This document shows, in pieces, positions 31,961-52,600 of a stretch of DNA of 64,000 nt; within the stretch, counting starts at the first letter, position 1; the number at the start of each line of letters is the position of its first letter. Made by a program: the position numbers and the translations under genes. Source of the stretch: Flavobacterium jejuense (lineage in GTDB: Bacteria > Bacteroidota > Bacteroidia > Flavobacteriales > Flavobacteriaceae); NCBI RefSeq assembly GCF_006491595.2, contig NZ_VEVQ02000020.1:1-64000 (forward strand). Reading direction: 5' to 3'. The notes below the pieces were generated by a model. That model was given only the letters and a program-made list of their open reading frames with translations, was not told the DNA's origin and did no database searches.

Positions 31961-33061
31961 CTAATTAAAACTATTTTTTTTCTTATTACTATTTAGACCA
32001 TTAAGTTGAACTGAGTTTATTTCCTTTTGTTTAATTTCTAAAGATTTAATTTGTTTCTTAAATAAAGAAAGACCTGTCTTTACCATTGTGTTTGAAATAC
32101 CTTCCATATACGCACCCATAGCAGAAGAGCTAAATACTTCCCCACTAGAAGCTGATATAGACTTATTTAAACTACTACTTACTTTCCCTAAAGAAAAGTT
32201 TAGGGCAGTATCAGAGACTGAATTAATTGTAAAAACATCTTCAACTGTAATATTTGTTAATGACCTCATAAATAATCCTCCGTTACCACCGAAAACAGCA
32301 CTGATAGCTACATCACCATAATCCATCTTATCAGTAGTAAAACCATTACCTACATATTGTGAAAAGTAACTACTTCCTCCACCTATAAAAATAGTTCTCC
32401 CTGCATTCAGACTAAACTGACTCTGTAAAGCAGGAATCCAACCAGATCCCGTCACCGTTTCAGCAAATCCTGTTGTCCCAAACCATGCAGTATATGCACC
32501 ATAAGCTTCTAAAGTCCCTACTGCAAAAGCTCCACCTAATAAGCCTACGCTAACTGCTTTCATAGTAGGATCGTGTGCAGCCAAGTAATGGCTTGAGTAT
32601 TGCTTTTGGTGAGACTCAAAAGTAATCCCACGTACTTGTGCTTGAGGAATTTGTACTGAGGGTGTTCTAGCATACGCTTTTAAAGTATAAAAACTTGATG
32701 GATTCTGTATGTTTAAACTTGCAGCACTGTATGCATCATAAAACGAATTAAAATATCCTCCAGTTATAGGTCCTAATGCAGCTGGTCCAATTTGTCCTTG
32801 ACTATTAACAGTCCATCCATCCTCAAGACCTTCAATCTCTATCATATCAATTACGCTGTTACTTGCAAATTGATATGGTGTTAATTCAGGATATTCTTTA
32901 GTCAAAGGATCAGTTGCAAAAAACCTACCCACTCGAGGGTCATGCATTCTAAAAGTGTAATTTAACGAATTCCCTTCCCCTTTTAACTCATCATCTTTTT
33001 CTTGTCCTTGGAAACCGTAACGGTAGGCTGTGCTAGAGCTGGTGCGGCTTGGCAAGGTCAT
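31961..33061 (-). CDS. Orphan RHS core plus C-terminal toxin tail 2
   Basis: 366 residues. The open frame continues upstream through the codons for DYYPFG to a stop at about 33087, so the first Met is that of FGMTLP and the start is nominal. The constant core follows ([20 protein letters not shown] ... [16 protein letters not shown]), nearly identical in DNA to cassette 1, then the variable tail from about residue 72. The tail is rich in Gly/Ala/Ser and has hydrophobic stretches (KAVSVGLLGGAFAVGTLEAY), which would suit a membrane-acting toxin, but no family is recognised. It has no signal peptide and no YD repeats, so it is either a silent donor tail or needs joining to a full-length RHS gene. 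Confidence 0.8.
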   Translation of the reverse strand: MTLPSRTSSSTAYRYGFQGQEKDDELKGEGNSLNYTFRMHDPRVGRFFATDPLTKEYPELTPYQFASNSVIDMIEIEGLEDGWTVNSQGQIGPAALGPITGGYFNSFYDAYSAASLNIQNPSSFYTLKAYARTPSVQIPQAQVRGITFESHQKQYSSHYLAAHDPTMKAVSVGLLGGAFAVGTLEAYGAYTAWFGTTGFAETVTGSGWIPALQSQFSLNAGRTIFIGGGSSYFSQYVGNGFTTDKMDYGDVAISAVFGGNGGLFMRSLTNITVEDVFTINSVSDTALNFSLGKVSSSLNKSISASSGEVFSSSAMGAYMEGISNTMVKTGLSLFKKQIKSLEIKQKEINSVQLNGLNSNKKKNSFN

Positions 33062-34386: not shown

Positions 34387-35097
34387 ATGAAGAAGATTTT
34401 TACAATTGTGTTCATCAACATTTTTTTAATATCCTTTACAGATCCGTATACTATTAAAAGAGTATCTGATAAAGAATATAGATATGAGTTTTATACTACA
34501 GATAAAGTGAGTAGTATTAAAAATACAAAAAAATACTATTGGTTCAAAGGAGGATTAATTCATTCTTCACAAGGAGGTGTTGCTGGGCAACTTTTAAATG
34601 ATGATTTTAAGAAATTCTATCATAGTAATCAATTAGCGGAACAAGGGAAATTCAAAAAAGGTTTAAAGGTAGGTTTATGGAAAACATGGTTTCAAAATGG
34701 AACATTAGAAACCACTCAAAAATTCAGTAATGGATTGTCAAGTGGTGATTTTCAAAAATTTGACGGTAATGGTAATATAATTGAAAAAGGGAAATTCAAA
34801 AAAGGAAAAAAACATGGTCAATGGGTCAATTATATTTCAAAAGATACTATCCAATTTAAAAATGGTGAAATTTTTATACCAAAACCAAAATTAACCAAAG
34901 AAGAAAAAGCTTTAGCTAAAGAAGCCAAATTTAAAGAGAAAGAAGCTTTGAAACTTCAAAAGGAGAAAGAAAAAGAGTTAAAAAAAGCTGAAAAAGAAAA
35001 GTCTCAAAATCAAAAAGGAAAATCAAAAGAATCTCCAAAAGAAAAAAACAAAAAAGAGAACTTCTTTACGCGTCTTTTTAGTAAAAAGGAAAAATAA
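34387..35097 (+). CDS. Secreted MORN-repeat protein with lysine-rich tail
   Basis: 236 residues from the start chosen at 34387 (MKKIFTIVFINIFLISF), which gives a proper signal peptide; an ATG at 34360 would add 9 residues. Residues about 75-155 hold toxin-antitoxin/MORN-type repeats (GKFKKGLKVGLWKTWFQNG, GKFKKGKKHGQWVNY). The last ~70 residues are a highly charged Lys/Glu helix. It is first of a run of five genes whose stops and starts overlap or nearly touch; its TAA shares its last base with the ATG of the next gene. The role in the pseudopilin system is unknown. Confidence 0.75.
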   Translation: MKKIFTIVFINIFLISFTDPYTIKRVSDKEYRYEFYTTDKVSSIKNTKKYYWFKGGLIHSSQGGVAGQLLNDDFKKFYHSNQLAEQGKFKKGLKVGLWKTWFQNGTLETTQKFSNGLSSGDFQKFDGNGNIIEKGKFKKGKKHGQWVNYISKDTIQFKNGEIFIPKPKLTKEEKALAKEAKFKEKEALKLQKEKEKELKKAEKEKSQNQKGKSKESPKEKNKKENFFTRLFSKKEK

Positions 35098-36320
35098 TGG
35101 TAAAAGCACATAGTCTATTGTATGCTGTTTATGTTTGCTTACTTGTAGCGATATTTTGTGGAGGATTGTTATTATTATCAAATTTATATAACCAGCTGAA
35201 TTTGTACTATGTCACACATGAAACCTTATTCATAAGTAACCAATCTACAGTAAATTATGCTTTAGGCAATAGTTTAGTTACTGATGAATCTATTTTAACA
35301 GAAGAAGAAACTGGAATTCAATCACAATTTTCTATTAAGAATCATGGTTTATTGCCTTTACTTTTGACACAATCTTATGTGAAAAATGACACCATCTCTT
35401 CTGCACATTTTGTAGGTCAAAAAGTAGCTAGTACTAATATCGCTCTGTATATGGCAAATTTCACCCAACCTTTAAGTCTTTCGGGTGATGTTACTATAAA
35501 AGGAAACCTTTTTATGCCAACCGACCGTATAAAAGAATCTTATATAAATAATAGACCTAATAAAATTAGTATTCAAGGAAACAAAACCATTTCAGAAATT
35601 CAACTGCCTACTCTTTCGGATAAATGCAACTCTATTTTTGAAATCAGAAATAGTTACAAAACAAATTTTAATGCTGTAGATAAGAAAAAGGATTCTATAT
35701 ATGTAAATTCTTTTTTTAATGAAACTATAGAATTTCAAATGAGCAATACAACTTTGGAAAACAAAATCATAAAAGGTAATTTTATTGTTAGTTCCAATGA
35801 TTCCATATACATTAGAAAAAATAATATTTTAGAAGATGTTATCATCATTGCACCAAAAGTAGCCATTGAATCAGGCTTTGAAGGTACTATTCAGGTGTTT
35901 GCTAAAGAGTCAATTAGTATTGAAAAAGAAGTGACATTGAATTATCCTTCTGTTATTGCATTATATAATAATAAAGAAGACCAGAAAGCTTTTGCGTTCA
36001 TTGACGAAGCATTCAAAATTGCCGGTTTAGTAATGCTTTTTGGTAACGATTTAGTTCATTTGAATAAAAACACTTTAGAAATAAAAGAAAAAGGTAAAGT
36101 AATGGGCAATATTTATTGTACTGGTGTTTTAACTTTAAAAAGTGATGTATATGGAGCTGTTTATACTTCAAAATTGAATCACAAAACACTTTCTTCTAGC
36201 TACTCTAATACTATTGCTGACGTTACAATTGATATAACCAAAAAACCAAAAGTTTTTATAGATATGCCCATTTTTAATAATAAAAACAACCGTTATGCCA
36301 TTATTAAAAAGGTATTATAA
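35097..36320 (+). CDS. GspK-like large pseudopilin candidate
   Basis: 407 residues. The N-terminus MVKA|HSLLYAVYVCLLVAIF resembles a prepilin: a short basic leader ending in Ala, then a hydrophobic helix. At the place of the conserved Glu+5 it has Tyr. Absence of Glu+5 is the mark of the tip pseudopilin GspK, and the large size agrees. The body (about 100-390) alternates short beta strands and includes a stretch of repeated turns (KIIKGNFIVSSNDSIYIRKN, then VIIIAPKVAIESGFEGTIQV) that looks like a beta-helix. It overlaps the next gene by 26 bp. No family assignment was possible, so the GspK idea rests on N-terminus and gene order. Confidence 0.6.
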   Translation: MVKAHSLLYAVYVCLLVAIFCGGLLLLSNLYNQLNLYYVTHETLFISNQSTVNYALGNSLVTDESILTEEETGIQSQFSIKNHGLLPLLLTQSYVKNDTISSAHFVGQKVASTNIALYMANFTQPLSLSGDVTIKGNLFMPTDRIKESYINNRPNKISIQGNKTISEIQLPTLSDKCNSIFEIRNSYKTNFNAVDKKKDSIYVNSFFNETIEFQMSNTTLENKIIKGNFIVSSNDSIYIRKNNILEDVIIIAPKVAIESGFEGTIQVFAKESISIEKEVTLNYPSVIALYNNKEDQKAFAFIDEAFKIAGLVMLFGNDLVHLNKNTLEIKEKGKVMGNIYCTGVLTLKSDVYGAVYTSKLNHKTLSSSYSNTIADVTIDITKKPKVFIDMPIFNNKNNRYAIIKKVL

Positions 36321-36621
36321 AGCTAATTCCATAATAGAATCGGTTATTGCATTAACCATCATCTCGATTTGCATTTATATTGCTATAATGGTATATGCCA
36401 ATGTGTTTTCTCCCAAAACATCAATTAAGCAATATTCCCATCAAAATGAAATAAACCAACAGTTTTATTTGATGCAATTGCAAGATGAAACCGAAATTGA
36501 AAATATAGAAGTTACAGAAAATTGGATAAATGCTTATTTGAAAGAAGTAACCCTTATTTATAAAGATAGTTTGTCTACCAATGTTACTAAAACCGTTTAC
36601 ATTCATACTGATGAAGAATAG
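36295..36621 (+). CDS. Small pseudopilin
   Basis: 108 residues. The leader MPLLKRYYKA is followed by NSIIESVIALTIISICIYIA: a type IV prepilin-like helix with Glu at +5 if cleavage follows Ala10. The residue before the cut is Ala rather than the usual Gly. A small soluble domain follows. It overlaps the preceding gene by 26 bp and the following gene by 11 bp. Confidence 0.75.
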   Translation: MPLLKRYYKANSIIESVIALTIISICIYIAIMVYANVFSPKTSIKQYSHQNEINQQFYLMQLQDETEIENIEVTENWINAYLKEVTLIYKDSLSTNVTKTVYIHTDEE

Positions 36622-37093
36622 CAACTACATAAAAGCGTTTTCAATTGTAGAAGTTATGGTTAGCATGGTCATTACTGCTATAATAGTTGGGTTAATTTTT
36701 GGTGTTTTTACAATTGTTTCAGAACAAATTTTAGCATTTAAAAAAGAAAACGAACAAACAGCAGATTTCAACAGACTGTCTTATAGTTTAAACAAAGCCG
36801 TTTTTGATAGTGAGAAAATGATGGTAAGAGAGAATGGAGTTTACTTTCAAACCTATGATGGAGATACTGTTTTTTATCAAAAGGAAGAAACTTACTTTAT
36901 TAGAAAAGCACAAAATTTCACTGATACTTTTAAAATACAAATTAATGAAATCCGTATGGACTCGCTTTTTAATTCAAAAAAAAGTAAAGTGTTTCAAAAA
37001 CTGGAATTGCAATTAGTTATTAATAAAAATATCATACCACTTCGTTTTTACAAACCGATTTATGCCAATCAATTAATTCTTTGGAAAGAATAA
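36611..37093 (+). CDS. Pseudopilin with prepilin-type N-terminus
   Basis: 160 residues from the start chosen at 36611 (MKNSNYIKA). The helix FSIVEVMVSMVITAIIVGLI has the prepilin pattern, Phe+1 and Glu+5 after Ala-1, and the mature body resembles GspJ/PulJ-type minor pseudopilins in size. An ATG at 36581 would only lengthen the leader and overlap the previous gene. The start sits in ATGAAGAATAG, overlapping the previous stop. GspF starts one base after its stop. Confidence 0.82.
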   Translation: MKNSNYIKAFSIVEVMVSMVITAIIVGLIFGVFTIVSEQILAFKKENEQTADFNRLSYSLNKAVFDSEKMMVRENGVYFQTYDGDTVFYQKEETYFIRKAQNFTDTFKIQINEIRMDSLFNSKKSKVFQKLELQLVINKNIIPLRFYKPIYANQLILWKE

Positions 37094-37094
37094 A

Positions 37095-38216
37095 ATGAGT
37101 TTAGATTTAAACAATTACAAAAAAAACAAGCCAAAACAAAAGAAGGATTTTCAATTCAATTTTGGAAAACTCAGTGTTTCCAAAACCTTTTCGGATAAGC
37201 AAAAAGAAATATTCTATAGAGAATTAGGCATGCTCTTAAAATCGGGTGTCGATTTTAAGAAGGCATTAGAAATCTTAAGTCAACAAGTTGAAAAGAAAAA
37301 AGAAAAAGAGCTTATTTTAGAGTTGAAAGATAAAATTGTTCATGGGAAAAGCATCTATGAGTCCATGTTGGAATCCAAACAATTTTCTCCTTACGAATAT
37401 TACAGTGTTCAAATTGGAGAAGAAACCAGAAAACTAGAAGAAGTTTTAACAGAACTCCAGAAGTATTTCAACCGAAAAATTCAAATGCGTAGACAAATTG
37501 TTTCGGTACTGACTTATCCTTCAATTGTAATGTTGGTAACAGTTTTAGTCTTGTATTTTATGTTGAATAAGGTTGTACCCATGTTTAGTTCTGTATTTAA
37601 GCAATTTGGAAGTGAATTACCAAAAAGCACCCAATACATTATCAAGATTTCAAATCATTCAGGAGTTATTTTTCTATTGTTTTTCTTAACGATTATTGCT
37701 TTAGTTGTTACCCATTTTCTATTGCGAGAAAAGGATGGTTATCGAAAATTTATCTCCACTTTAATTTTAAAAATACCTTATTTTGGAAATCTTATTCGAA
37801 AAATATATATTTCTCGTTTTTGTCAATCAATGAATCTATTGATTACTTCAAAAACTACTTTACTAACTTCTTTGTCTTTAACTTCTAAGATGATAAGCTT
37901 TTATCCTATTGCTTACTCCATTGAAAGTATTAAAAATGATATTACTAAAGGAGCCTCCTTGCATGAAAGTTTGAGAAAACATAAAATTTATGAAAACAAA
38001 TTAGTTTCAATGGTAGAAGTTGCGGAACAAATCAACCAACTTGATACTATGTTTGAGCGCTTGTCAGAACAATATAATGAAGAAATAAACCATCAAACAA
38101 AAATGATAGGGGTAGTTCTTGAACCTATGATTATTATTGTTATTGGAATTGTAGTAGGAGTTATTATGGTTTCCATGTATGCTCCTATGTTTGATTTAAG
38201 TAAAATTATTAAATAA
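37095..38216 (+). CDS. GspF/PilC-family inner-membrane protein
   Basis: 373 residues. Two T2SSF domains (about 38-160 and 240-365) each start with the FYRELGMLLKSGVDFKKAL/FCQSMNLLITSKTTLLTSL helical block, with three membrane segments (about 140-160, 190-212, 343-365). It forms the platform of type II secretion or type IV pilus machines. No GspE ATPase, GspD secretin or prepilin peptidase is coded in this window, so those parts must come from elsewhere or the machine is minimal. Last gene of the tight run 34387-38216. Confidence 0.92.
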   Translation: MSLDLNNYKKNKPKQKKDFQFNFGKLSVSKTFSDKQKEIFYRELGMLLKSGVDFKKALEILSQQVEKKKEKELILELKDKIVHGKSIYESMLESKQFSPYEYYSVQIGEETRKLEEVLTELQKYFNRKIQMRRQIVSVLTYPSIVMLVTVLVLYFMLNKVVPMFSSVFKQFGSELPKSTQYIIKISNHSGVIFLLFFLTIIALVVTHFLLREKDGYRKFISTLILKIPYFGNLIRKIYISRFCQSMNLLITSKTTLLTSLSLTSKMISFYPIAYSIESIKNDITKGASLHESLRKHKIYENKLVSMVEVAEQINQLDTMFERLSEQYNEEINHQTKMIGVVLEPMIIIVIGIVVGVIMVSMYAPMFDLSKIIK

Positions 38217-38525: not shown

Positions 38526-39029
38526 ATGCTTAAAAATAAATGGAGTCTTTTAGCGTTAATTAATTCTGTATTAATAATTTTATTAACAGGTTTTATCCTA
38601 TACAAGTTTTCAAATTCATCTGAAAAAATAGTTTATGTAGATAATAATAAGCTATTTGAAGAATTTAGAATGACAAAAGAAATGAAAAAGATAGGAGAAA
38701 AAGAATTTAATAAAAAGAAAGCCAATTTAGATAGTCTTTATCTCGAAATTCAAAGAGAAGATTTGTCAAAAGAAATAAAAGAGATAATGATGAAAGAATT
38801 CGTTTCTAAAAGAGATGATTTTGATCAATTTAACCAATCTTTTGCAATTGAAGAATCTGAAAAAATATGGTTAAGAATTGCTAGTTATTCTAAAGAATTT
38901 TCCAAAGAGAATAATTACAAAATAATAGTAGGATCAAACGATAAAAGAAATGTTTTATTTGCTGATGAATCATTAGATGTTACAAGAAAATTATTGGAGT
39001 ACGTTAATAAAAAATATGCTGGCCTATAG
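38526..39029 (+). CDS. OmpH/Skp-like periplasmic chaperone
   Basis: 167 residues. One membrane or uncleaved signal segment (about 8-28), then IVYVDNNKLFEEF, the typical first strand of OmpH/Skp proteins, a long charged coiled coil (about 45-115) and the C-terminal strands YKIIVGSNDKRNVLFADESLDVT. Skp-like proteins hold unfolded outer-membrane or secreted proteins in the periplasm. As first gene in front of giant secreted RHS proteins it may help keep them export-competent, which is inference. Confidence 0.82.
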   Translation: MLKNKWSLLALINSVLIILLTGFILYKFSNSSEKIVYVDNNKLFEEFRMTKEMKKIGEKEFNKKKANLDSLYLEIQREDLSKEIKEIMMKEFVSKRDDFDQFNQSFAIEESEKIWLRIASYSKEFSKENNYKIIVGSNDKRNVLFADESLDVTRKLLEYVNKKYAGL

Positions 39030-39077: not shown

Positions 39078-39680
39078 TTGAACAAATTTACAATCTTATT
39101 TTTAGTTTTACTTTGTTTTTTTTCGTGTAAAAAAGAAGTAGAAAAAAAGCCTTTAGTTGATGATGGATCTATTCGTTATCAACTTTTTCAATTGGAAAAA
39201 TTTGGCTGGAAATCTAAAGTACATTCTCAAAAAGTTGATGATATCAACTTTACTGCAACTGAAGTACCCATTCAATATTATTTACTAAAAGACCAAGGCA
39301 ATGAAGATCTCTTTAATATTGATTCTTTATATCAAGAAAATAAAACAGAAAGAGTCCTTGAATTTACTTTCGAACAAGAAGATGAAGATGATTTATTAAA
39401 AGATAAATTTACTTCTTTATCTTATGAAGAAGGTGTAAAATACATGTCATTTTCACTAGATAAAGACTTTTACGTAGTGACTTCAAAAAACGACACTATA
39501 CAATGTTCTGGAGTAAGTTATGAAAGAAATTTCAAGGTAGCTCCTTTTCAAAAAGTATTACTTTTTTTCTCAGGAATTGATCCAAAAGAAAAAATACAAC
39601 TCATATACAACGACAAATTATTCAAAAAAGGAACGTTAAAATTCCAATTCAAAGACACTTATACAGAAATACTATTATGA
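39078..39680 (+). CDS. Small lipoprotein in the RHS gene run
   Basis: 200 residues starting with TTG at 39078; no in-frame ATG or GTG upstream gives a signal peptide. The lipoprotein signal NKFTILFLVLLCFFSCKKE places the acylated Cys at residue 17. The rest is a beta-rich domain with no recognised family. Its stop overlaps the next start in ATGA, so it is probably translated together with the 1885-residue protein. Confidence 0.72.
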   Translation: MNKFTILFLVLLCFFSCKKEVEKKPLVDDGSIRYQLFQLEKFGWKSKVHSQKVDDINFTATEVPIQYYLLKDQGNEDLFNIDSLYQENKTERVLEFTFEQEDEDDLLKDKFTSLSYEEGVKYMSFSLDKDFYVVTSKNDTIQCSGVSYERNFKVAPFQKVLLFFSGIDPKEKIQLIYNDKLFKKGTLKFQFKDTYTEILL

Positions 39681-42600
39681 AGCAGATTAGATCTAGTAAG
39701 TTTTCTAAATTTTTGGCATATTATTTAGCCATAATGATGTTTTTACAGGTTACACAACCTTTACAAATGTATGCTTTAACAGAAGGACCATCTCAACCAG
39801 AATTCAATTCCTTTACTCCTATTGGAACTTCAGACATGGTAGATTTAGCAAGTGGTGATTTCAACTACAATATTCCTATTATGGATGTGGGTGGTTACCC
39901 AATAAATCTAGCCTATAACTCTGGTGTAACAATGGATCAAGAAGCATCATGGGTAGGTCTTGGTTGGAATTTAAATGTGGGACAAATTAACAGACAAATG
40001 CGTGGTTTGCCAGATGATTTTAATGGAGATTCTATGATCTATGAAAATAACATGAAAGACAATATCACAGTTGGTTCTGGAGTTGGAATAAATCTTGCTT
40101 TATTTGGATTAAATGAAGACAAAGAAAAAATAATTAAAGGTGGTTTAAATGCTGGTTTAAGTGTAAAGTATAATAATTATGATGGTATAGGGTTTTCTGT
40201 AAATGGAGGATTTAGTTTAGATGTAGGGAAATCTATGGCTGTTGGAATGCAAATGGAATCTTCAGTTACAGAAGGAGTTTCTGCATCGCCTAGTTTGTCT
40301 TTTCACAATAAGAATCAAGGTAAAACTCAAAGAGAAAATGAATTAACAGGAAGCTTAGGAGTAAGCTATAATAGTAGAAAAGGTATTGAAGGAATGAATT
40401 TTTCTGCTAAAAGAAGAAATATCCAATGTTTTGATGTAAGTGAAAATTTAAACTTTTCTGCTGGGCATTCTAAAACTTATTCAAATGGAGGTTCATTATC
40501 TTTCATTGATGCCTCATTTACACCAACAAAAAGAGTGGGTATGAAATCATCAAATTTCATGTTCAATATGGATTTGGATGCTGATATTTATGGACCTGAA
40601 TTAGGATTAAAATTTTCTGGATTTATGACAAAACAAGGAATTGATGATTCCGAAAAATATAAAATAGAAAAAGGTTTTGGATATGAAAATAGTTATAATG
40701 CTTCACAAAGTGATGTTTTAGATTTTAATAGAGAAAAAGACAGAACTGTAAACAAACACACATCTGTTTTACCAATAACTAATTATACTTTTGATATTTA
40801 CACAGTTCAAGGACAAGGAGTATCAGGGATGTTTAGACCTTATAGTGGTCAAATTGGTTATGTCTATGATAATAAAATTGTAGATAAGAGTGTAGGAGGA
40901 AATGCTGGTGGTGAGATTGGACCAGCACCAGCGCAAGAATGGGGTTTTGATGCCACTGTAACAATAGGAAATAGTTATACAAAATTATGGTCTAGTGGCA
41001 ATCAAGCTTTAACACGTTTTAAAGAGAAAAAAGACAATAAGCCTGATTATGAAAGAATATATTTCAAAAATATTGGAGGAAATCATGTTGATAAAGAAAA
41101 AGATATCTTAAATAATGAACTTGGAAAATATGCTCCAATAAAGTTTGATTTATCTGGAAGTAGTTATGCTAGAACTACCACACAAGATTACTATAAGTTT
41201 GATAATAATGTAACAGAAAAAATTGGTAGTACTAATAAAATTGTAAGAACTCAAAGAGTCAATAGAAATCAAGCTATTCAGAAATTAACAAGAAAAGAAG
41301 CTGCAAAATTTGGTTTTAGCAAATCATTTAGTGATTATGCTAAAGACCATCATACAGCCGAAATTAGAATTATTAAAGATGGTGGCGATCAATATGTTTT
41401 TGGTAAAGCATTATATAATCATGTTAAAAGAGAAGTTACTTTTGATGTAAGTAATAAAGATGGGCATGATGGCAATTGTTCAACAGGTTTGATTTCTTAT
41501 TTAAATGGAGATAATTCAGCTAATAATAAAAAAGACGGGGATCAATATTTTAACAGGGTTACTACACCTGACTATGCGCATACCTATTTGTTGACTTATG
41601 TTTTATCTTCTGATTTCCAAGACATTGACAGTATATCAGGTCCGTCTGATGGTGATTTAGGTTCTTACACAAAATTTGTATATGATAATAAAACAAAAAA
41701 AGATGGATTATACAAATGGAGAGTTCCTTTTGGGAAATATAAAGCCAACTATGATGAGGGATTGAAATCTAGTAAAAAAGACGACAAAGGAAATTATCAA
41801 TATGGGGAGAAAGAAATGTCTTATATCCAAAAAATAGAAACAAAAACGCATATTGCTATTTTTGAAATTTCAGAACGGGAAGATGGATATGGTGTAGAAG
41901 GAGAAAATGGAGGATTGAATATTGATTCAAAGTCTTATAAACTAGATAAAATATCATTATATTCTAAGCCTGAATATGACGCTTATCAAGATGAAGCCAA
42001 GCCAATAAAAGTAGCTCATTTTGAATATGAATATTCATTATGCCGAGGGATTGAAAATAATAAAAATTACTCTTCTTACAAAGCAGATTCAAATACAAGT
42101 GATCCTGTTGGTAAATTAACCCTTAAAAAAGTATACTTTACGTATAGGGATTCAAATATGGGAAAATACACTCCTTATGAATTTGGGTACATAAATAATT
42201 TTGATTACGACATGAAAGCCTATGATGTTTGGGGGAATTATAAACCATCACCTGTAGATGTCAGTTGCAATCCTACTTCTGGTTCCATGTCAAATGCTGA
42301 ATATCCTTTCGTTGATCAATCAAATAGAGAATTGGCAGATAAATATGCAACAGCTTGGCATCTAAATAGCGTTAAATTACCTTCTGGTGGGACAATTTCA
42401 TTAGATTATGAAGCGGATGATTATGCATTTGTTCAAAATAAAGAGGCAATGCAAATGTTTAAAGTTATAGGTGCTGGCAATGGGACGCAACAGAATATGA
42501 CTAATAATTTATTTGGTTCTCAATATTTATTTATTAAAATCAATGAAAATATTGAAAATTCAGAACAAGGAAAAGATAAATTCAGAAAAAAATATATTAG

Positions 42601-45334
42601 TGATCTAATAAATCAGCCAATTTATTTTAGATTTTTGGTTAATATGTTTGATCCAAACCCTATGCCCGGAGCTAGTACACCTGATAAATATGATTATGTA
42701 ACGGGTTATTTAAAGCTCGATAATGATTTTAAAGTTGACGGAAGTGATGTAGTAGGTATAAAAATTAAGTGGGCAAAAAAAGGAGATGGAGTTAATGCAA
42801 ATAAGGATGTAAATCCAATTTCAAAAGCAGGTTGGCAATTTGGTCGTACCTATTTGAACAGACTTGTTTATGGAATTACAAATAATGAGGAATCTAAAGA
42901 TTTGAAAAGTATTGTAATGGAGTTAATTGGAACAATTCCATCAGTATTTCAAATATTACAAAGCCCAAATGGAAGATTAGAGGACAAGGGAATAGCAAGT
43001 CAATTTATTACTAATAAATCTTGGATTCGTTTGAAACACCCTGAAAATAAAAAAATTGGAGGTGGTAGTAGAGTAAAACGAGTGAAATTATCTGACGAAT
43101 GGGATATAATGACAAATCATACTGGAAATGCAGCTTATTCACAATCTTATGGTCAAGAATACAGTTATACAAAAGGAGATGGTGGTGAAAACGACAAAAC
43201 TACTTCAGGAGTAGCAACGTACGAACCTCTTGGGTGTAAAGAAAACCCATTAGTCCAACCATTTTATGATAAAACAAACCCAGGTCTTTTATTAGGGCCT
43301 GATGAACAAAATTATGTAGAAGAACCACTTGGAGAGTCATTTTTTCCTTCTCCAAAGGTTACTTATTCAAAAGTTTCAGTTAGAAATTTACCTAGAGAAA
43401 AAGATGTAGATGGAGTCATATTTAAAGTAAAAAAACATGCTACAGGTCATGTTGTAACTGAATTTTTCACATCCTTTGATTATCCAACTTTAGTAAATTA
43501 TACAACTTTATCTTCTCATTATGACAAATCGCCTTTAGCTAGTATTGTTAATATTAACACAAAGCAACACTTGACTTTATCTCAAGGTTTTTCAATTCAT
43601 ACCAATGATATGGACGGTAAAATGAAAAGCCAAAGAGTATATGCCGAAGGACAAACAGCTCATATATCAGGCGTAGATTATAAATACAAAGACAATATAG
43701 AAATACAAAAAATAAAAAGTGATGGACTTCTTGATAATGAAATAACTACCATAAATTCAAACGGACAAGTTCAACAGAATATTGTTGGTGTAGATTATGA
43801 TGTAATTAATGATTTTAGGGAAAATAAATCAGTAACTACAACAGGTGGTATTCGTTTCAACTCTGCTGGTTTACCATTAGCAATAATATACTTAGTCGTA
43901 CCAACACCTTTACCAAAATTCTCTAGACTTGAGGATAAATTAAAAACAGCAGTAACAACTAAGGTGATACATTCATCAGGAATTTTAAGAGAAACAGTAG
44001 CTTATGATGTGGGAGCAGTTGTTTCTACTAAAAATTTAGCTTGGGATGCAGAAACGGGTCAAGTATTAATTACAGAAACAGTTAATGAGTATAATGATAA
44101 ATATTATAGCTTTAATTATCCAGCATATTGGAATGGTGATTACAAAGCTATGGGACAAGCGATAACCAATCTAGATTTAGAATGGAATATTGAATTAACA
44201 GATACTAATAATAATGATGGTCAGTATCGTTTTAAAGGGAACTATAATGCTAAAGATTATCTTTTAGCTGGAGATGAATTGTGGATAACACAAGGTAGAA
44301 CTAATGGATATACAGAACCTCTATATGGAGATAGACCAAGACCATTCAAAGCTTGGGTTGTAGATGTTGAGGATAATGGAGTAATCACATTAATTAACAA
44401 AGAAGGATTACGTGTTGATCAATATAGTGTTAATAATGGCTCTATTAAAGTAATACGTTCAGGATATAGAAATCTTCAAATGGGCAGTATGGCTTCAATT
44501 ACTTCAATGACAAATCCATTGACAAAAAGAAATCCTAATAATTCAGACCTTATTGATCCTAATTTGTTTCAATCTACAAACTGGAATGAATATAGAATTA
44601 TTAATGCTTCAGCAGTAGAATATTCAAATATATGGGCAGGACAATGTGAATGTAAATTACCACAAATGAAATTTGACAATGAAGGTAAATTAGTTTTCAA
44701 TTTTGAATTATTAGATTATGAAAGTGATGAATACGATAAAGTAATTGATGAATCTTATAATCCTTACCTATATAATATATTAGGGAATTGGAGAGCCAAA
44801 AAATCGTATGCGTACTTAACAGGAAGACACCATTCAAATAATGCAACCCCAAGAGTTTCTGGTTTTTATAATGATTTTTACCCATTTTATGTTTATGATG
44901 TTGCTAATAAGTGGAAAATTAACGAAAGCTATATTGACAAATGGACGTTTGCATCAGAAGTTACAAACTATAATCCTTATGGGCAAGAAATTGAGAATAA
45001 AGATGCTTTAAATAGATATTCCTCTGCTCTATATGGATATAATTATAGATTCCCATTAGCTGTTGCTTCTAATACAAAATACAATGAACTTGCTTATGAT
45101 GGTTTTGAGGATTATAACTTTTCAGAGTGTGATTCTTTATCTCACTTCAGTTTTGAAGGTAGTTTAGATGAAAACAATATCACAATTTCAAATACGCAAT
45201 CACATACTGGAAGAAGAAGTATAAGAGTAGCACCAAGTGAAGGAACTAAAAAAAGAAAAGCAATTATTACAAAAAAGATAGTTACTTGTGATGAACCTGT
45301 CTTAACTACTAAAACAATACAAACTAAAAAATAA
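39677..45334 (+). CDS. Large secreted RHS-associated protein (Bacteroidetes type)
   Basis: 1885 residues. Signal-like N-terminus (about 13-35, FLAYYLAIMMFLQVTQPLQM). The region just after (SDMVDLASGDFNYNIPIMDV ... GGYPINLAYNSGVTMDQEAS, WVGLGWNLNVGQINRQMRGL) is a hallmark of giant Bacteroidetes proteins that accompany RHS genes, akin to the SpvB/TcaC-like shell. A middle section has SGGTISLDYEADDYAFVQNK. It ends in NPYGQEIENKDALNRYSSAL and a short Lys-rich tail. In related proteins, as I recall, the chain goes on to a C-terminal segment that here is instead at the end of the next gene. Likely part of the cell-surface shell that carries RHS toxins. Confidence 0.8.
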   Translation: MKQIRSSKFSKFLAYYLAIMMFLQVTQPLQMYALTEGPSQPEFNSFTPIGTSDMVDLASGDFNYNIPIMDVGGYPINLAYNSGVTMDQEASWVGLGWNLNVGQINRQMRGLPDDFNGDSMIYENNMKDNITVGSGVGINLALFGLNEDKEKIIKGGLNAGLSVKYNNYDGIGFSVNGGFSLDVGKSMAVGMQMESSVTEGVSASPSLSFHNKNQGKTQRENELTGSLGVSYNSRKGIEGMNFSAKRRNIQCFDVSENLNFSAGHSKTYSNGGSLSFIDASFTPTKRVGMKSSNFMFNMDLDADIYGPELGLKFSGFMTKQGIDDSEKYKIEKGFGYENSYNASQSDVLDFNREKDRTVNKHTSVLPITNYTFDIYTVQGQGVSGMFRPYSGQIGYVYDNKIVDKSVGGNAGGEIGPAPAQEWGFDATVTIGNSYTKLWSSGNQALTRFKEKKDNKPDYERIYFKNIGGNHVDKEKDILNNELGKYAPIKFDLSGSSYARTTTQDYYKFDNNVTEKIGSTNKIVRTQRVNRNQAIQKLTRKEAAKFGFSKSFSDYAKDHHTAEIRIIKDGGDQYVFGKALYNHVKREVTFDVSNKDGHDGNCSTGLISYLNGDNSANNKKDGDQYFNRVTTPDYAHTYLLTYVLSSDFQDIDSISGPSDGDLGSYTKFVYDNKTKKDGLYKWRVPFGKYKANYDEGLKSSKKDDKGNYQYGEKEMSYIQKIETKTHIAIFEISEREDGYGVEGENGGLNIDSKSYKLDKISLYSKPEYDAYQDEAKPIKVAHFEYEYSLCRGIENNKNYSSYKADSNTSDPVGKLTLKKVYFTYRDSNMGKYTPYEFGYINNFDYDMKAYDVWGNYKPSPVDVSCNPTSGSMSNAEYPFVDQSNRELADKYATAWHLNSVKLPSGGTISLDYEADDYAFVQNKEAMQMFKVIGAGNGTQQNMTNNLFGSQYLFIKINENIENSEQGKDKFRKKYISDLINQPIYFRFLVNMFDPNPMPGASTPDKYDYVTGYLKLDNDFKVDGSDVVGIKIKWAKKGDGVNANKDVNPISKAGWQFGRTYLNRLVYGITNNEESKDLKSIVMELIGTIPSVFQILQSPNGRLEDKGIASQFITNKSWIRLKHPENKKIGGGSRVKRVKLSDEWDIMTNHTGNAAYSQSYGQEYSYTKGDGGENDKTTSGVATYEPLGCKENPLVQPFYDKTNPGLLLGPDEQNYVEEPLGESFFPSPKVTYSKVSVRNLPREKDVDGVIFKVKKHATGHVVTEFFTSFDYPTLVNYTTLSSHYDKSPLASIVNINTKQHLTLSQGFSIHTNDMDGKMKSQRVYAEGQTAHISGVDYKYKDNIEIQKIKSDGLLDNEITTINSNGQVQQNIVGVDYDVINDFRENKSVTTTGGIRFNSAGLPLAIIYLVVPTPLPKFSRLEDKLKTAVTTKVIHSSGILRETVAYDVGAVVSTKNLAWDAETGQVLITETVNEYNDKYYSFNYPAYWNGDYKAMGQAITNLDLEWNIELTDTNNNDGQYRFKGNYNAKDYLLAGDELWITQGRTNGYTEPLYGDRPRPFKAWVVDVEDNGVITLINKEGLRVDQYSVNNGSIKVIRSGYRNLQMGSMASITSMTNPLTKRNPNNSDLIDPNLFQSTNWNEYRIINASAVEYSNIWAGQCECKLPQMKFDNEGKLVFNFELLDYESDEYDKVIDESYNPYLYNILGNWRAKKSYAYLTGRHHSNNATPRVSGFYNDFYPFYVYDVANKWKINESYIDKWTFASEVTNYNPYGQEIENKDALNRYSSALYGYNYRFPLAVASNTKYNELAYDGFEDYNFSECDSLSHFSFEGSLDENNITISNTQSHTGRRSIRVAPSEGTKKRKAIITKKIVTCDEPVLTTKTIQTKK

Positions 45335-45344
45335 TAGTAAAATA

Positions 45345-48300
45345 ATGAATACTTTAAAATTTAAAATACTTTTAAGTGCTGTTTGTTTTATTCTAACAAG
45401 TAGTTTGTTTGCGCAATTATATGAAGATTTTGAAGGATCTAGCTTTCCACCAGCTGGTTGGGCTGTTTTTGATAATGGCATTGGCTTAACACAATCTTGG
45501 AAATCAATATCTAATCAAGGTTATTTAGGAAGTAAAGCAGCGTACATACAAAAAGAAGGTGGAGGAATAGCTGAAGATTGGTTGGTAACTCCTTTAATTA
45601 ATATTAATGTAGATAAGGCTATAGCTTTTTACACAAAATTAACTCAACATGGGATATATGGGAGTGAATTTAGTATCCGAATTTCTACAGGATCTCAAAC
45701 TTCTGTCTCTGATTTTTCTACACTACAAACGTGGAATGAACCTCAATTAATGAATGGAGGAAGTCAAACTAGTTATATTCAAAAAGCTATAGATTTAACA
45801 AATTATACTGGTCAAAGTGTTTACATTGCTTTTGTTATGAAAAACAACAATGGTAATAGTTGGTTAATTGATAATATCAGTTTTGTTGATAGTTGTAGTG
45901 CTCCATCTCAGTTAAATTATTTAAATGTGAGTTCTACTTCAGCTTTTTTGAATTGGAATAATAATGGGATCGCTACTCAGTGGGAGGTAGAATTATTACC
46001 AGTTAATGCAACTACTAATGGTGTAGGAAATAATACAAATAGTAATCCATATTATGTTTCAGGCTTAATACCTTATGAAGAATATAAATTTTATGTTAGG
46101 TCTATTTGTCCAGATGGAATAGTGAAGAGTGCATGGATTGGTCCCAAAACGTTTAAGGCTTTACCTCCTTGTCCAAAGCCAAACCTTAGCAGTTTTCAGA
46201 TTAGTAATTATAATGGAAATTCTGCCAGTTTAAGTTGGAATGCAAACGATCCTTCTAGCCAAGTATCCTCATGGGAAGTTGTTGTTCAGCCTAATAATCT
46301 TGGTGTTCCAAATAACAATACAGGGACAATAGTAACGCAAACTAATTTTCAAATTACAAATTTAAGTCCTAATATTATTTATGAGGTTTACATTAGACCT
46401 ATTTGTAATGATCAAACTTCATCTTGGGTAGGTACAACAATAGTAAACAATAATACAGGAGGATGTACAGGTGAATTTAACTCGGCGGTGTACGTATCAA
46501 ACTTATTTAAAAACTTATTAAATCATTTAAGGCAAAAGGTTAATAATAATGAGCCAATTGTAGATTACACATGTCCTGAGCTAACATTATTATCCCAATA
46601 CATTATAGATCCTAATCCAAAAATATACAACTTTAATGCTACAGATTTTTCTTTCTCATTTCATCCAACAATTCCAGGAAATACACCAGATGTAACTATA
46701 AATAATTGGCAAACTTCTGATGATCCAATAATAAATAGTATAACCATTGACAAGAATTTTGTTAATGCCACAAGTTATACTTATCTTTTAAATCAAATCA
46801 AATTATCAAATAATAACCTAATTTCAAATGCAAGGGTAAAACATATTAATTTTTGTACAAGATGTGTTGTAGGTGAAATAGAACCTAATTCTGATCTATG
46901 CATAAACGAGTCTATTAATTTCTCATTTAATACTATTGAAACGGGTTTAGATTATAACTGGACTTTTTATGACTTAGACGGAACCACTGTTTTGTTCACT
47001 TCCAATGTAGCCAATCCTACAATCAATTATATTGTAGAAGGTTCTTATAAAGTTAAACTAACAGTAGAGAAAAGTGATAACAAGAAATGTACTGGCGAGT
47101 ATTTAAGTACATATTACATAAATGATTGTGAAAACATCCAATCATGTACAGTAACAAATCCTAATTCAAAAGTAGTTAAAAACTTAGTAATAGCCTTAGT
47201 TAATAAACTAGCATCTCTTCCGTCTGGTACAGTAACATCAGGTTTTACTTGTCAAGAATTAACGGATTTAGCTCCTTACATTACTGACACTAATCCAGCC
47301 ATCTATAATTTTTCATACATCAATGACATCATTAGATTTTCTTTTGCTAATCATGGGATTAGCTTAGATGTTTCATTAATAATACCTCAATCTGAATTAC
47401 CAATTCAGGACATAGTATTAAGTAATTACTATTCTTTTGAAAACGAATTTTATCCTGATGTGAAAGGGATTTCAGGACAGTTTTACAATGGAGATGAAAC
47501 TTTTATTAGACATATAGATTTTTGTCCATCAGATACAATTAATTGTGAAAGACACATCGCAATCGTAGTAGACGAATCTGGTTCTATAGATGAAAAAGAA
47601 GCAAGAAAAATTAGAACACAATTAAAATCTTTTGTTACCAAACAACTTGAAGATAATACACATGGAACTAACGTACGTATTTCGTTAATTGGTTTATCAG
47701 ATTCTGATACGGATACTAGAACTAATACAACTATTCCAAATAACGGAAATAATGTTATTTTAAATGAAATTATAACAGCTAATAACTTAGGTCTATACTT
47801 AAACTGGATTAACGGTTACAGAACAAACAGAGTAAGCCCAAATTCTGATTATTGGAATAGTGGTTTAAATAAAGCTTTAGAAATAAATCCAGACTTCGTT
47901 ATTTTAATTACTGATGGTTGCCAAACAGCTATTCCTAAAGCAAATCAAGCTAGCTTATTTAATACCATGAAAAAATTCAACAATAACTATGGTGCTGGAA
48001 CAACACCAGATGGAAAACCTCATTTATTTGTTGTAGGTATTGAAGATGGTTTTTATGTAGATAATGATGCTTCTTCTTCAGCTAGAAAATCGATTTTAAC
48101 CAAAGAAGAAGATCCTAATTTAAACCCTGAGCTTAGTAGAACTTCTAGTACAACAGCTAGAGTATCTTCATTCTTAAGAACATCGTTAAAATATTTAATG
48201 GCATATGGGAATACAGATTTTCCTTCAAATGACAAATACAGCTTCTTAGCAGATTATTATGGAGCAAATGATTTTAATTTCTTTTATGATGAACCTAATT

Positions 48301-48911
48301 ATCTTTCAAATGGTTTAATTGCTAAAAGTGTATCTATTGTAAATGGTGAAACAGATTTATACATTCCTGTTGGAATGAGCTGTGGTCCTTATAAACCACT
48401 TGAAGGATGTAATGATTGTTTGAATTTTAAACCAGAAAGTGGAAAAAAATACATTATCAGTGCTTGGGTAAAAGAAGAAATTAACAAACAAGTTGTTAGC
48501 TATACAAACCCTACTATTCAAATTAAATATTTAGACAATTCAGATCCAAAAATAGAAATTGGAACTGAAGATTGTATTCCTAGTGGCGATATAATAGATG
48601 GATGGCAAAGAATATTTAAACAAATTACTATTCCAGAAAATACAGCTTATATTCAAATTGCTTTAACGAATAACAGCACTAGTATTCCTGTTTATTTTGA
48701 TGATGTTCGTATTCATCCAATGGACGGAAGCATGAAGTCATTTGTATATGATCCAGAAACATTTCGACTAATGGCCGAATTAGATGAAAACAATTATTCA
48801 ACTTTTTATGAATATGATAAAGAAGGTGGTTTAGTTCGTGTTAAAAAAGAAACTTCTAGAGGGGTTAAAACCATTCAAGAAACAAGATCTGGAAACGTTA
48901 TAAAACAATAA
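45345..48911 (+). CDS. Secreted multidomain protein with MAM-like, Fn3, VWA and RHS-type end
   Basis: 1188 residues. Signal peptide (1-24); choice-of-anchor J/MAM-like domain (about 25-185: YEDFEGSSFPPAGWAVFDNG ... DWLVTPLIN); two fibronectin type III domains (about 188-370); a PKD-like domain (about 520-590); a von Willebrand A domain (about 730-950) with MIDAS start VVDESGSID; a carbohydrate-binding-like sandwich (about 1000-1120); and an RHS-type end MKSFVYDPETFRLMAELDEN with STFYEYDKEGGLVRVKKE. The end normally belongs to the preceding type of shell protein. The domain mix suggests surface adhesion or target contact. It lies 10 bp behind the 1885-residue gene and 2 bp before the next. Confidence 0.82.
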   Translation: MNTLKFKILLSAVCFILTSSLFAQLYEDFEGSSFPPAGWAVFDNGIGLTQSWKSISNQGYLGSKAAYIQKEGGGIAEDWLVTPLININVDKAIAFYTKLTQHGIYGSEFSIRISTGSQTSVSDFSTLQTWNEPQLMNGGSQTSYIQKAIDLTNYTGQSVYIAFVMKNNNGNSWLIDNISFVDSCSAPSQLNYLNVSSTSAFLNWNNNGIATQWEVELLPVNATTNGVGNNTNSNPYYVSGLIPYEEYKFYVRSICPDGIVKSAWIGPKTFKALPPCPKPNLSSFQISNYNGNSASLSWNANDPSSQVSSWEVVVQPNNLGVPNNNTGTIVTQTNFQITNLSPNIIYEVYIRPICNDQTSSWVGTTIVNNNTGGCTGEFNSAVYVSNLFKNLLNHLRQKVNNNEPIVDYTCPELTLLSQYIIDPNPKIYNFNATDFSFSFHPTIPGNTPDVTINNWQTSDDPIINSITIDKNFVNATSYTYLLNQIKLSNNNLISNARVKHINFCTRCVVGEIEPNSDLCINESINFSFNTIETGLDYNWTFYDLDGTTVLFTSNVANPTINYIVEGSYKVKLTVEKSDNKKCTGEYLSTYYINDCENIQSCTVTNPNSKVVKNLVIALVNKLASLPSGTVTSGFTCQELTDLAPYITDTNPAIYNFSYINDIIRFSFANHGISLDVSLIIPQSELPIQDIVLSNYYSFENEFYPDVKGISGQFYNGDETFIRHIDFCPSDTINCERHIAIVVDESGSIDEKEARKIRTQLKSFVTKQLEDNTHGTNVRISLIGLSDSDTDTRTNTTIPNNGNNVILNEIITANNLGLYLNWINGYRTNRVSPNSDYWNSGLNKALEINPDFVILITDGCQTAIPKANQASLFNTMKKFNNNYGAGTTPDGKPHLFVVGIEDGFYVDNDASSSARKSILTKEEDPNLNPELSRTSSTTARVSSFLRTSLKYLMAYGNTDFPSNDKYSFLADYYGANDFNFFYDEPNYLSNGLIAKSVSIVNGETDLYIPVGMSCGPYKPLEGCNDCLNFKPESGKKYIISAWVKEEINKQVVSYTNPTIQIKYLDNSDPKIEIGTEDCIPSGDIIDGWQRIFKQITIPENTAYIQIALTNNSTSIPVYFDDVRIHPMDGSMKSFVYDPETFRLMAELDENNYSTFYEYDKEGGLVRVKKETSRGVKTIQETRSGNVIKQ

Positions 48912-48913
48912 TA

Positions 48914-49624
48914 ATGAAGAAAATCTTAACTCTATTTTTAATAACGTTTACTTCCGTTTTTATAAACGCTCAAAATGCTGAAGAGGTATTAAATAAATTG
49001 AATGTTGTTTATTCTGAGAATAGTCCATTACAATTTGAAACGAAATATAACCTTTATAAGAATAAGTCTTCTAAACAGATTTATGAAACTTATAATGGTG
49101 TTTTTAAAAAGAATGAAAAAAACGAAATCTATCAAAAAATAGATAAAACCGAATTTATTTGGAATAAAAAAATGTGTTTAAGCATTTTTCACCCTGATGA
49201 ATTAATGATGCTTTCTTTTTCGCAACCTATTTCAACGGAACAATTTGATTTGAAAAAATTACTAGAAATATGTTCAATAAAAAGCTTTATCAATAAAGGA
49301 AAGTTTTGGGAATTAATAATTGAAAACAAACCCTTTTCTGGATTAGAATATTCCAAAATTGTAATTCAGATTAATAAAAATTATTTTATCCAAAAGCAAT
49401 TGTTTTATTATAATACATCAATTAATTTCTCAAAAGATTTTAATAAGCAAGATTTAGATTTACCTGTTTTAGAGATTGTTTATTCAAATTTTAATCGAAA
49501 TAAAATAGAGAATAGTTTTTTTGATTTTTCAAAATACATTGTTGAATCTAAAAACGGAATACAACCTTCTAAAGCATATTCAAATTATGTTTTAGAAGAT
49601 CAAAGAGAAATTACATTAAAATAA
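48914..49624 (+). CDS. Secreted protein of unknown function in RHS gene run
   Basis: 236 residues, signal peptide 1-19 (ending INAQ). The remainder is a beta-rich domain with repeated aromatic/charged strands (PLQFETKYNLYKNKSSKQIY, NGVFKKNEKNEIYQKIDKTE) and could be a LolA-like half-barrel, but no motif settles it. Starts 2 bp after the VWA protein and ends 17 bp before the giant RHS gene, so it is co-transcribed with both. Confidence 0.7.
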   Translation: MKKILTLFLITFTSVFINAQNAEEVLNKLNVVYSENSPLQFETKYNLYKNKSSKQIYETYNGVFKKNEKNEIYQKIDKTEFIWNKKMCLSIFHPDELMMLSFSQPISTEQFDLKKLLEICSIKSFINKGKFWELIIENKPFSGLEYSKIVIQINKNYFIQKQLFYYNTSINFSKDFNKQDLDLPVLEIVYSNFNRNKIENSFFDFSKYIVESKNGIQPSKAYSNYVLEDQREITLK

Positions 49625-49641
49625 AAATATAGGTATACAAA

Positions 49642-52600
49642 ATGGGAAAGTTAAATACTATTTTTAAAGTACTAATTTTATTAGTCACATTATTGGGTTA
49701 TTCGCAAAAAGAGATTACTAATTCAGCGATATTGACTGGTAATGCAATAATAAACAACGGGAACATAAACTTATCTGTTAGTGACCCTTTATTTAATCAA
49801 TTAAGCAATAATAACGCTAATTTTAAATCAGTTGACCCTGCTGTATATCTGCATTTTGGATATCAAGAGGAGGTTCAAAACAGTTTAAAATATCAGGCGA
49901 TTTATTATAGTGAAATAAGTTATTCTATTTTTAATACTGTTGTAGTATCTTCTGGACAATCACAAGGGACTACTCCTTTAACTGGAACATTAAAGATATA
50001 TCATAACAATATTACTAATGATTATAAGTTAAAAGATTATGCAGTAGTTAAATTCCCAGGAATTCATAAATCTGATTTAACAATCACAAGTGTTAAATAT
50101 TATGATTTTAACAATGCTGTTATTACAAATTTTGATCAGTCAAAAAATTCTACCTATGTAAAATTATCTTTTGAAACGGAGAGATATTATAATATTGCCA
50201 GTACAAAATTAAACTTGACGCATTCCCTTATTAAATATAACGGAACTGTGGAAAATAATTTAGGATACATTGCAGAATCAAATAACGAAGAAGAACTTGA
50301 AATTTCTTGGTCGATTGAGAACAATGGTAATAAACCAGTTGAGTATGAACTAGAATGGACTTGGGTTGATAATTATGCTGATGTCTATACTAATGAGCTC
50401 TCCAAAGAAGATATCGATTTAACAGAATCTGACTTTCAAAGAAATAGTACAAGAGTTCAAACGAAAGATACTAAGTATAGAATTCCATTGATTTTTAACA
50501 AAGGGTATCTAATATATAGAGTTAGACCTGTAGGCCGTTTTTTAAACAATATAAACAAAGTGTATTACGGGAGTTGGACAACTGATAGTTCAACAACAAC
50601 TTACACAACCGTAGATGATTGGCCAAATGTTTTAAAAATTAATCTACCTCATGAAAATGGCTCTAAAAACTGGCAATATCAAGCTAGCTATGCAGAAGAC
50701 GGAAAAAAGAAAGATGTAGTTAGTTATTTTGATGGTAGCTTAAGAAATAGACAAACAGTTACTAAAGTAAATACCGATAATCAAACAATAGTTGGTGAAG
50801 TAATTTATGACAATCAAGGAAGACCTGCTATTGAAATATTACCTACACCAATAGGTACTTCTGGAATTAGTTATTTTGAAATGTTGAACAGAAACATGAC
50901 TGGTACAACATATTCTCATAATGATTTTGACTGGGATGATCCTACTATTAATGTTTGTATTCCTGAATCTATTGAAGGTATGTCACCTTTTTCAGGAGCA
51001 AGTAAATATTATTCTCAAAATAACGATCAGTTAAATAATTATCAAGATTTTGTTCCAGATGCAGAACTATATCCATTTTCGCAAATAGAATATACTCCAG
51101 ATAATACTGGTAGAATAAGAAGAAAAGGAGGTGTTGGTGAAACACATCAAATAGGAAAAGGACATGAAATGAATTACTTCTACTCTCAAGCAAAACAAGA
51201 AGAATTAAATAGATTGTTTGGCTATAAAGTAGGAGATTTTAAGAGATATAAAAAAAATGTTGTGGTTGATCCTAACGGACAAGTTAGCATCAGCTATATA
51301 GACCCGCAGGGAAGAACCATTGCAACAGCTTTGACAGGAGAAAGTCCAGCGAATTTAGATCAACTAGATGGTGTGTTGGATGGTGAGTTAACGGTAAATA
51401 TTTTAAGTGATAATGTTTTATATGCTTCAGGATTAAATGGAGTGTTAAACGATGGTTTTCGTTTAAATACGCAAGTAGATGTTGTAAAAGAAGGAACACT
51501 TGAATTTGAGTACAGTTTTGCAAATGCGCTAAGTGCTTTTGTTTCAGACTGTTCAGATTCTTATCCTTTTGTTTATGATTGGTCAGTTAGTCTTTTAGAT
51601 GATTGTGCTACAGAACGATTTGTTGGTAGCGGAACAGATTTAGCAACTGAAATCGATAATGATTTTAGCACACAACTAGATTCTGAAAGCTTAAAAGTAG
51701 GAACCTATACTTTAAACAAAACGCTAAAAATCAATCAAGCCAAGTTAGACGAATATACAGACCAGTATATGGCTAAAATTACTGATGTTAATGGAGGTTG
51801 TTACCCAAATATTTCTTTTGATACAGGTGCAAGTATTGAAGACTGTAACGTGTCTTGTTTAAGTTGCGAATTATCTTTAGGAGAAAGGTATTTGACACCT
51901 TCATCCTATGCAACTTTTGAAGGGTTAATTCCAATAATACCTTATGATCCAAACAATTCAGATTGGGATTCATATGAGGATTATTTAGCTTCTCCACAGT
52001 ATGCTGCACAATTCATTCTAGGAGATGTAAGTTTAAGATATCCTTTCATACAAGAAATGCGCAATCAATATGTTATTGAAAATTTAGATATACTTTTTCC
52101 TGATAATGCTTTTAGCTATATTGGAGGAAGTGTAACTCCCACTTCTCCTGAAATAATTCTTGCAGAGTCACAATTGCAAAATGAATTCGATCAATTGTTA
52201 GATACTTGTAGAAATTTATGTAATCAACCTTATGATACTTGTAATATTAGTTATGAAGTATTACTAGGAGATGTAAGTCCTACAGGACAGTATGGAGCTG
52301 TTGATTCTTCATCAGATGATGACGAGGAAGAAGATGACTCAAATGATCCTGACCCAGATCCTTCAACAACACCTACTACTAATTTCGAATCATTAAGTGT
52401 TTTTGATGAATATAATGGTTTAGTTTATGGAGGAGTAAATTCATCAACTGGTCTTACAAACTTTAGCTGGAGAAATCCTGACCCCTTCGTTCCTTATGCT
52501 GATGCATTTGGCACTCTGGCAACTATTGAAGTTATTAAAATAGATGAAAACATTTACGATCCTGCTATATTAATTGATTCTCCATTAACTGACGTAACAG

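Follow-up and report, generated by a model that had tools for sequence, protein, structure and literature searches.

The first 64,000 nucleotides of contig NZ_VEVQ02000020.1 (C20) of Flavobacterium jejuense, the whole stretch of DNA analysed here and called the window below, carry at 34387-38216 a compact five-gene run that includes pseudopilin and GspF genes and is followed by a block of RHS genes. A key finding of our analysis is that this run is the front half of a type II-like machine that is complete in gene content in this genome, and that pairing with RHS genes is a general property of the system in the sampled family. Such a recurrent pairing suggests that the machine exports the RHS proteins, and we consider it probable, reasoning from sequence, that this complete, pilus-derived machine has the adjacent RHS complex as its main cargo. 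The question bears on the exit of large RHS proteins from Bacteroidota cells: should the pairing be functional, a pilus-like machine gains a cargo and the RHS proteins gain an exit.

Gene content of the machine

The five genes of the run all lie on the + strand, with spacings of -1, -26, -41 and +1 bases, in agreement with the original prediction of genes that overlap or nearly touch:

34387..35097, + strand: exported MORN-like protein, first of the run (MORN_2 0.0066, below cut-off)
35097..36320, + strand: K, modelled as a minor pilin with an N-terminal helix and a beta-helix domain (alignment of 30 relatives, AlphaFold2 model, fold matches including ComZ)
36295..36621, + strand: minor pseudopilin 1 (N_methyl 0.035, below cut-off; position conserved in relatives)
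36581..37093, + strand: minor pseudopilin 2 (N_methyl 3.3e-5, over cut-off)
37095..38216, + strand: GspF/PilC-like platform protein (PF00482 E 6.8e-45)

The run does lie, as had been stated, between a recombinase gene upstream (tyrosine recombinase, 33277-34314, PF00589 1.2e-13) and RHS genes downstream. The gene identities first proposed fared unevenly: GspF is certain and pseudopilin 2 is over its cut-off, while pseudopilin 1 and the MORN protein rest below their cut-offs and GspK is unmatched. The MORN-like gene adjoins K in many relatives. Because the iterated profiles for the major pseudopilin G and for pseudopilins 1 and 2 drifted into one another, these three labels are interchangeable in places.

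The absence of an ATPase and a secretin, a feature of the original prediction, holds for the 64-kb window and not for the genome, which has one of each. The sole strong PF00437 match genome-wide lies further along the same contig (C20:72768-73862) and the sole PF00263 match at the start of another (C14:1337-1843); the genome holds one GspF. The further suggestion of a location elsewhere for the missing genes was thus borne out, with the ATPase and an A24-like peptidase later on C20 and the secretin on C14, where gspD is followed in order by L-like, M-like, FN3 lipoprotein and C-like genes:

C20:71558-71998: gspG-like major pseudopilin, read around the ATPase location
C20:71998-72480: A24-like peptidase, a 160-aa open reading frame (ORF; PF01478 20.1 bits, below the cut-off of 26.5)
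C20:72483-73886: gspE ATPase (PF00437)
C14:1849-3027: L-like candidate (weak PilN match, 0.0037; named by position and eye)
C14:3027-3554: M-like candidate (named by position and eye)
C14:4528-5025: C-like candidate (named by position and eye)

A PF01478 search of the genome at E up to 1e-3 gave no match for the peptidase. With ATPase, platform protein and secretin all present, the basic parts of a type II system are in place, and a degenerate machine without an engine was ruled out by the ATPase, secretin, peptidase, G and L/M/C-like genes found. In most loci the FN3-domain lipoprotein gene (here C14:3566-4525) separates the M-like gene from the C-like one, and its product could act with the secretin as a new outer-membrane partner.

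G, the peptidase and E lie 33-36 kb downstream of the run (33.3 kb from gspF to gspG). Besides the RHS block, this interval contains two regulator-like ORFs as well as two orphan RHS tips, each accompanied by a small neighbour. The run leads straight into G-A24-E-D-L-M-FN3-C in most close relatives, so among the genomes examined the interruption of the operon by RHS genes is peculiar to this one.

The second gene of the run, K, had been called GspK-like, an identity that the family searches did not bear out: against Pfam and NCBIfam, at E up to 1, K has no GspK match. A family alignment of 30 sequences has an N-terminal hydrophobic stretch with Lys-Ala just before it, and the AlphaFold2 model (pLDDT 89.1, pTM 0.86) consists of a helix at residues 4-57 and then beta structure. 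Foldseek with this model found nothing at E up to 0.001; its top three rows were Thermus ComZ (best E 1.7e-3, prob 0.90). VIA-align gave Z 11.7 over 213 residues for K and ComZ, with ice-binding beta-helices scoring alike (Z 12.3 and 11.8), and because its list is filled with beta-helix proteins, ComZ does not stand above the ice-binding ones. ComZ, a competence pilin of Thermus thermophilus (PDB 6qvi), resembles K in being a pilin that bears a beta-helix, but identity is 8%, the TM-score is only 0.26 and the alignment covers the beta part alone. K is accordingly best described as modelled: a putative minor pilin carrying a beta-helix, at the position expected for GspK.

Pairing with RHS genes across genomes

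Among the 199 genomes of the family sample, 39 have a GspF of the window type. The RHS core (model TIGR03696) occurs in 72 of the 199 genomes, comprising 39/39 GspF-positive and 33/160 GspF-negative ones; RhsA, the large shell protein of the window's block, is found in 26 and its accompanying lipoprotein lipo200 in 25, all of them GspF-positive (0/160 GspF-negative). Fisher tests gave 8e-22 for RHS core against GspF and, in a second comparison, 3e-23, both figures ignoring kinship and genome size. The 39 genomes have 41 gspF loci; the nearest RHS gene is no more than 10 kb from gspF at 27 of them and no more than 25 kb away at 35. The survey of neighbourhoods therefore did not find the run mostly without RHS genes, and the proposed association of RHS with a type II-like machine is real and recurrent across family genomes. 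A chance neighbourhood was rejected as the main reading in view of the 39/39 co-occurrence, the 35/41 linkage and the distribution of RhsA and lipo200.

At least four arrangements preserve the linkage: the RHS genes follow gspC, precede the MORN gene in divergent orientation, lie between two divergent half operons or, as in this genome, separate F from G. In G036, G059, G072, G114 and G179 a single operon runs from K to C and continues into (OmpH)-lipo200-RhsA, with OmpH uncalled in G179. In the Flavobacterium loci L125, L127, L133, L134, L135 and L136 the RHS block is divergent, in front of the MORN or K gene, and in a more distant GspF group (including G018, G019, G077, G083, G123, G127 and G156) it lies between divergent G-A24-E-D-L-M and FN3-C-K-pp1-pp2-F halves, pp1 and pp2 being the minor pseudopilins. 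With start codons assigned mechanically, gspC and ompH share 4 or 8 bases in L014, L017, L019, L146, L147, L151, L156, L157 and L159, eight of them distinct (L019 = L146). That the genes have been rearranged repeatedly and yet remain linked would point to function rather than a frozen neighbourhood.

The pairing also extends beyond the sample. At 80 named Genome Taxonomy Database (GTDB) loci, the best 80 of 575 confirmed and including a few duplicates of sampled genomes, RHS genes lie within the examined flanks at 54, and the chaperone or lipoprotein gene alone at 8. Genera represented include Flavobacterium, Aquimarina, Kordia, Flavivirga, Polaribacter, Pedobacter, Mucilaginibacter, Sphingobacterium and Carboxylicivirga. 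For the phylum sample (395 genomes) the system was counted with the K profile, which is present in 28 genomes, 17 of them outside the family; around GspF at 16 of these 17 loci, RHS genes were found at 10 within stretches of 20-40 kb. A count based on GspF at E up to 1e-20 (143/395 phylum genomes) was rejected, as the list of matches breaks between ~4e-49 and 2e-33; the weaker matches, judged from one locus (L117), are ORFs of ~450 aa with another gene order.

The RHS block of the window

The genes of the block and the orphan tip ahead of the run are as follows:

31961..33061, - strand: orphan RHS tip with RHS core (TIGR03696 1.2e-9)
38526..39029, + strand: OmpH/Skp-like periplasmic chaperone, opening the block (PF03938 1.4e-11)
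39078..39680, + strand: lipo200, lipoprotein accompanying RhsA (lipobox cysteine conserved)
39677..45334, + strand: RhsA, large exported shell protein, 1885 aa (relatives only in GspF-positive genomes of the family sample)
45345..48911, + strand: RhsB, large exported protein, 1188 aa, with choice-of-anchor J domain (NF038128 2.1e-21)
48914..49624, + strand: 236-aa exported protein between RhsB and RhsC (no family over cut-off; profile at 8 clade I places)
49642..61029, + strand: RhsC, 3795 aa, RHS core and C-terminal tip (PF05593 1e-7, DUF6443 6.8e-7, TSP_3 1.1e-12, TIGR03696 1.8e-9)
61055..61498, + strand: small lipoprotein behind the RhsC tip, candidate immunity protein (related protein behind a related orphan tip)

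Because the spacings from the chaperone onward are short (+48, -4, +10, +2, +17 and +25 bases), the genes from chaperone to small lipoprotein look like one operon. The architecture is that of RHS polymorphic toxins, with PF05593, TIGR01643 and TIGR03696 in RhsC and TIGR03696 in three orphan ORFs. Pfam and NCBIfam gave no believable family for RhsA, lipo200, the 236-aa protein or the RhsC tip; a 'LolA-like' label for the 236-aa protein was dropped as a guess without supporting evidence, and the lipo200 structure model is middling (pLDDT 73.7), its best fold match being a DUF4426 protein at E 1.7e-3. At loci L104 and L105 the RhsA profile and an RHS core fall within one protein, which supports the view that RhsA forms the front portion of an RHS shell coded here by separate genes, and RhsA, RhsB and RhsC may together build one shell. 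By our own reading the block resembles the BC shell of Tc/ABC toxins, which we take to consist of separately coded shell proteins, the last with an RHS core and a variable tip. A comparison of such proteins with Tc/ABC toxins is likewise made in the cluster section of an earlier study (PMC5808330).

No toxin family was found for the RhsC tip or for its neighbour, the known relatives being a paralogous tip-lipoprotein pair behind a mobile-looking stretch (L004:8494-9705 and 9710-10135; 7e-48 and 3e-12). Both paralogous tips contain, by eye, a His-Glu-x-x-x-His stretch. A tip acting in the periplasm or envelope would fit the lipoprotein nature of these partners.

Large surface proteins of Bacteroidetes normally use the type IX route, as the original prediction noted in proposing a check for type IX C-terminal signals. 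None was found: RhsA, RhsB and RhsC lack a type IX sorting domain in NCBIfam, in a genome with 100 TIGR04183 matches, none of them on C20. Exchangeable C-terminal tips would moreover leave no room for such a signal. One could still suppose that the RHS proteins are exported by type IX, directly or via a partner with a sorting domain, and that the pilus-like genes form an unrelated pilus or DNA-uptake device. The heavy use of type IX by this genome and the resemblance of K to the competence pilin ComZ speak for this, as does the proposal, in the relevant part of PMC7073777, that another Bacteroidetes polymorphic toxin class is type IX cargo. We regard it as very improbable, given the missing sorting domains and given that a device unrelated to RHS leaves the 39/39 co-occurrence unexplained.

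Proposed export route and alternatives

In the export route that we infer, RhsA, RhsB and RhsC would reach the periplasm by Sec, where the OmpH/Skp-like chaperone and lipo200 would preserve their competence during folding into a shell that encloses the C-terminal tip. The ATPase E, the platform (F and the L-, M- and C-like proteins), the major pseudopilin G and a minor-pilin tip including K would then drive the folded complex through the secretin D. The complex would end on the surface or in the medium, its tip acting on other cells, and the small lipoproteins coded behind each tip would shield the producer.

Several observations weigh against this route. At 6 of the 41 family loci no RHS gene lies within 25 kb: in G195 the nearest is at 129 kb, at G138:C85 there is a sub-threshold fragment, G069, G079 and G130 are near contig ends, and G084 has none in 40 kb, its RhsA sitting on another contig. 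Neither RHS nor partner genes occur in the examined stretch at 18 of the 80 named loci, and RHS genes are missing from it at 6 of the 16 K-positive loci outside the family, where distant RHS may be missed because the RHS profile was built on the family. The 33 GspF-negative genomes with RHS cores indicate that RHS can exist without the machine. Within F. jejuense itself, many of the 19 RHS core matches lie away from C20, several at contig starts, which implies many scattered orphan tips, and gspD is apparently split by a multi-copy repeat. C20 ends ~190 bases past gspE (73887-74075); these bases open with a short frame resembling the gspD start of relatives and then diverge, and the last 110 bases of the contig recur at two more places in the genome, one being the very start of contig C13. 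C14 begins inside gspD, so that the gene's first part is on one contig and its body on another. On the simplest reading, a multi-copy repeat element interrupts gspD in this assembly, with an assembly fault possible.

The cellulose phenotype of the Cytophaga hutchinsonii machine, as described in PMC5553014 where that machine is treated, suggests in addition that the cargo may be wider. Together with the RHS cores of GspF-negative genomes and the presence of recombinase genes and of orphan RHS tips near the locus, it favours a general exporter (of hydrolases, adhesins or others) which RHS operons adjoin as both share a variable, recombination-prone island, the RHS proteins exiting otherwise. We think this unlikely, though a more serious contender than the type IX route, as it fits poorly with the lack of RhsA and lipo200 in GspF-negative genomes and with a linkage kept across arrangements, gspC overlapping ompH in several genomes. 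Export of the RHS complex by the type II-like machine thus stands as our preferred explanation.

Kinship and precedents

The cut-offs of the curated type II secretion system (T2SS) models are not reached by GspE (482/630 bits), GspF (246/424), GspD (115/351) and GspG (24/89), and type IVa pilus (T4aP) models score alike, also below cut-off (PilB 471 bits, PilQ 115). For a PilT retraction ATPase, there is no second PF00437 match over cut-off in the genome, the others reaching 22.3 and 18.9 bits. These scores and the absent PilT-like ATPase are consistent with the placement given in the pertinent section of PMC6668835, in which the Bacteroidetes system clusters with T4aP, apart from T2SS, and the Bacteroidota 'T2SS', for which few cargoes are known, is raised as a candidate new secretion system.

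The putative T2SS of C. hutchinsonii and other Bacteroidetes has, like the present machine, D, E, F, G, a peptidase and divergent L/M/C-like genes (PMC5553014; PMC6668835). The passages of PMC5553014 on this machine report that it is needed for cellulose use and give Fjoh_0611-0622 and FP2299-2302 as orthologues. Unlike the system described here, it is known for cellulose use, and the parts of the two papers concerned with it make no RHS link.

The closest precedent, with first claim to the idea, is the 35-kb third CC-ST10 cluster of Flavobacterium psychrophilum (FPSM_02418 to 02439), as presented in the section of PMC5808330 devoted to it. Like the locus in F. jejuense, it combines type II secretion genes, an OmpH/Skp-like chaperone, which there adjoins GspG, and proteins that carry ABC-toxin (RHS shell) domains; its secretion genes form two opposite loci with the toxin-domain proteins between, which is the plan of the divergent arrangement in relatives. 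It differs in being described as a one-species island with possible virulence links, whereas the window locus has the RHS block inside an operon, and that section contains no survey of how general the pairing is. The portions of PMC7073777 and PMC5524665 that treat these systems draw no link between machine and RHS, and we found no wider account of the pairing in the literature, subscription papers and preprints lying outside the search.

It is tempting to speculate, with somewhat less than even confidence, that the K-bearing Bacteroidota 'T2SS' arose from type IV pili and forms a separate secretion system. Its principal, and perhaps original, function would be the export of RHS shells built from several proteins and served by a chaperone and a lipoprotein dedicated to them, and this RHS route would be distinct from types VI and IX.

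Additional loci and surroundings

Locus L117 (G415:C1:615000-634999) codes for a 445-aa GspF-like protein beside two ATPase-like ORFs of 591 and 424 aa, which may represent another pilus-like system; the phylum sample commonly shows such weak GspF matches. Locus L178, from a record that bears the gammaproteobacterial name Glaciecola amylolytica, contains the complete cluster including RhsA (GspF identity 50%, GC 0.394) and reflects either a wrong label or a transfer. Between the RHS block and gspG of F. jejuense, C20:62567-66033 (L004:1568-5034) contains, by eye, a 533-aa ATPase-like ORF and two tyrosine-recombinase-like ORFs.

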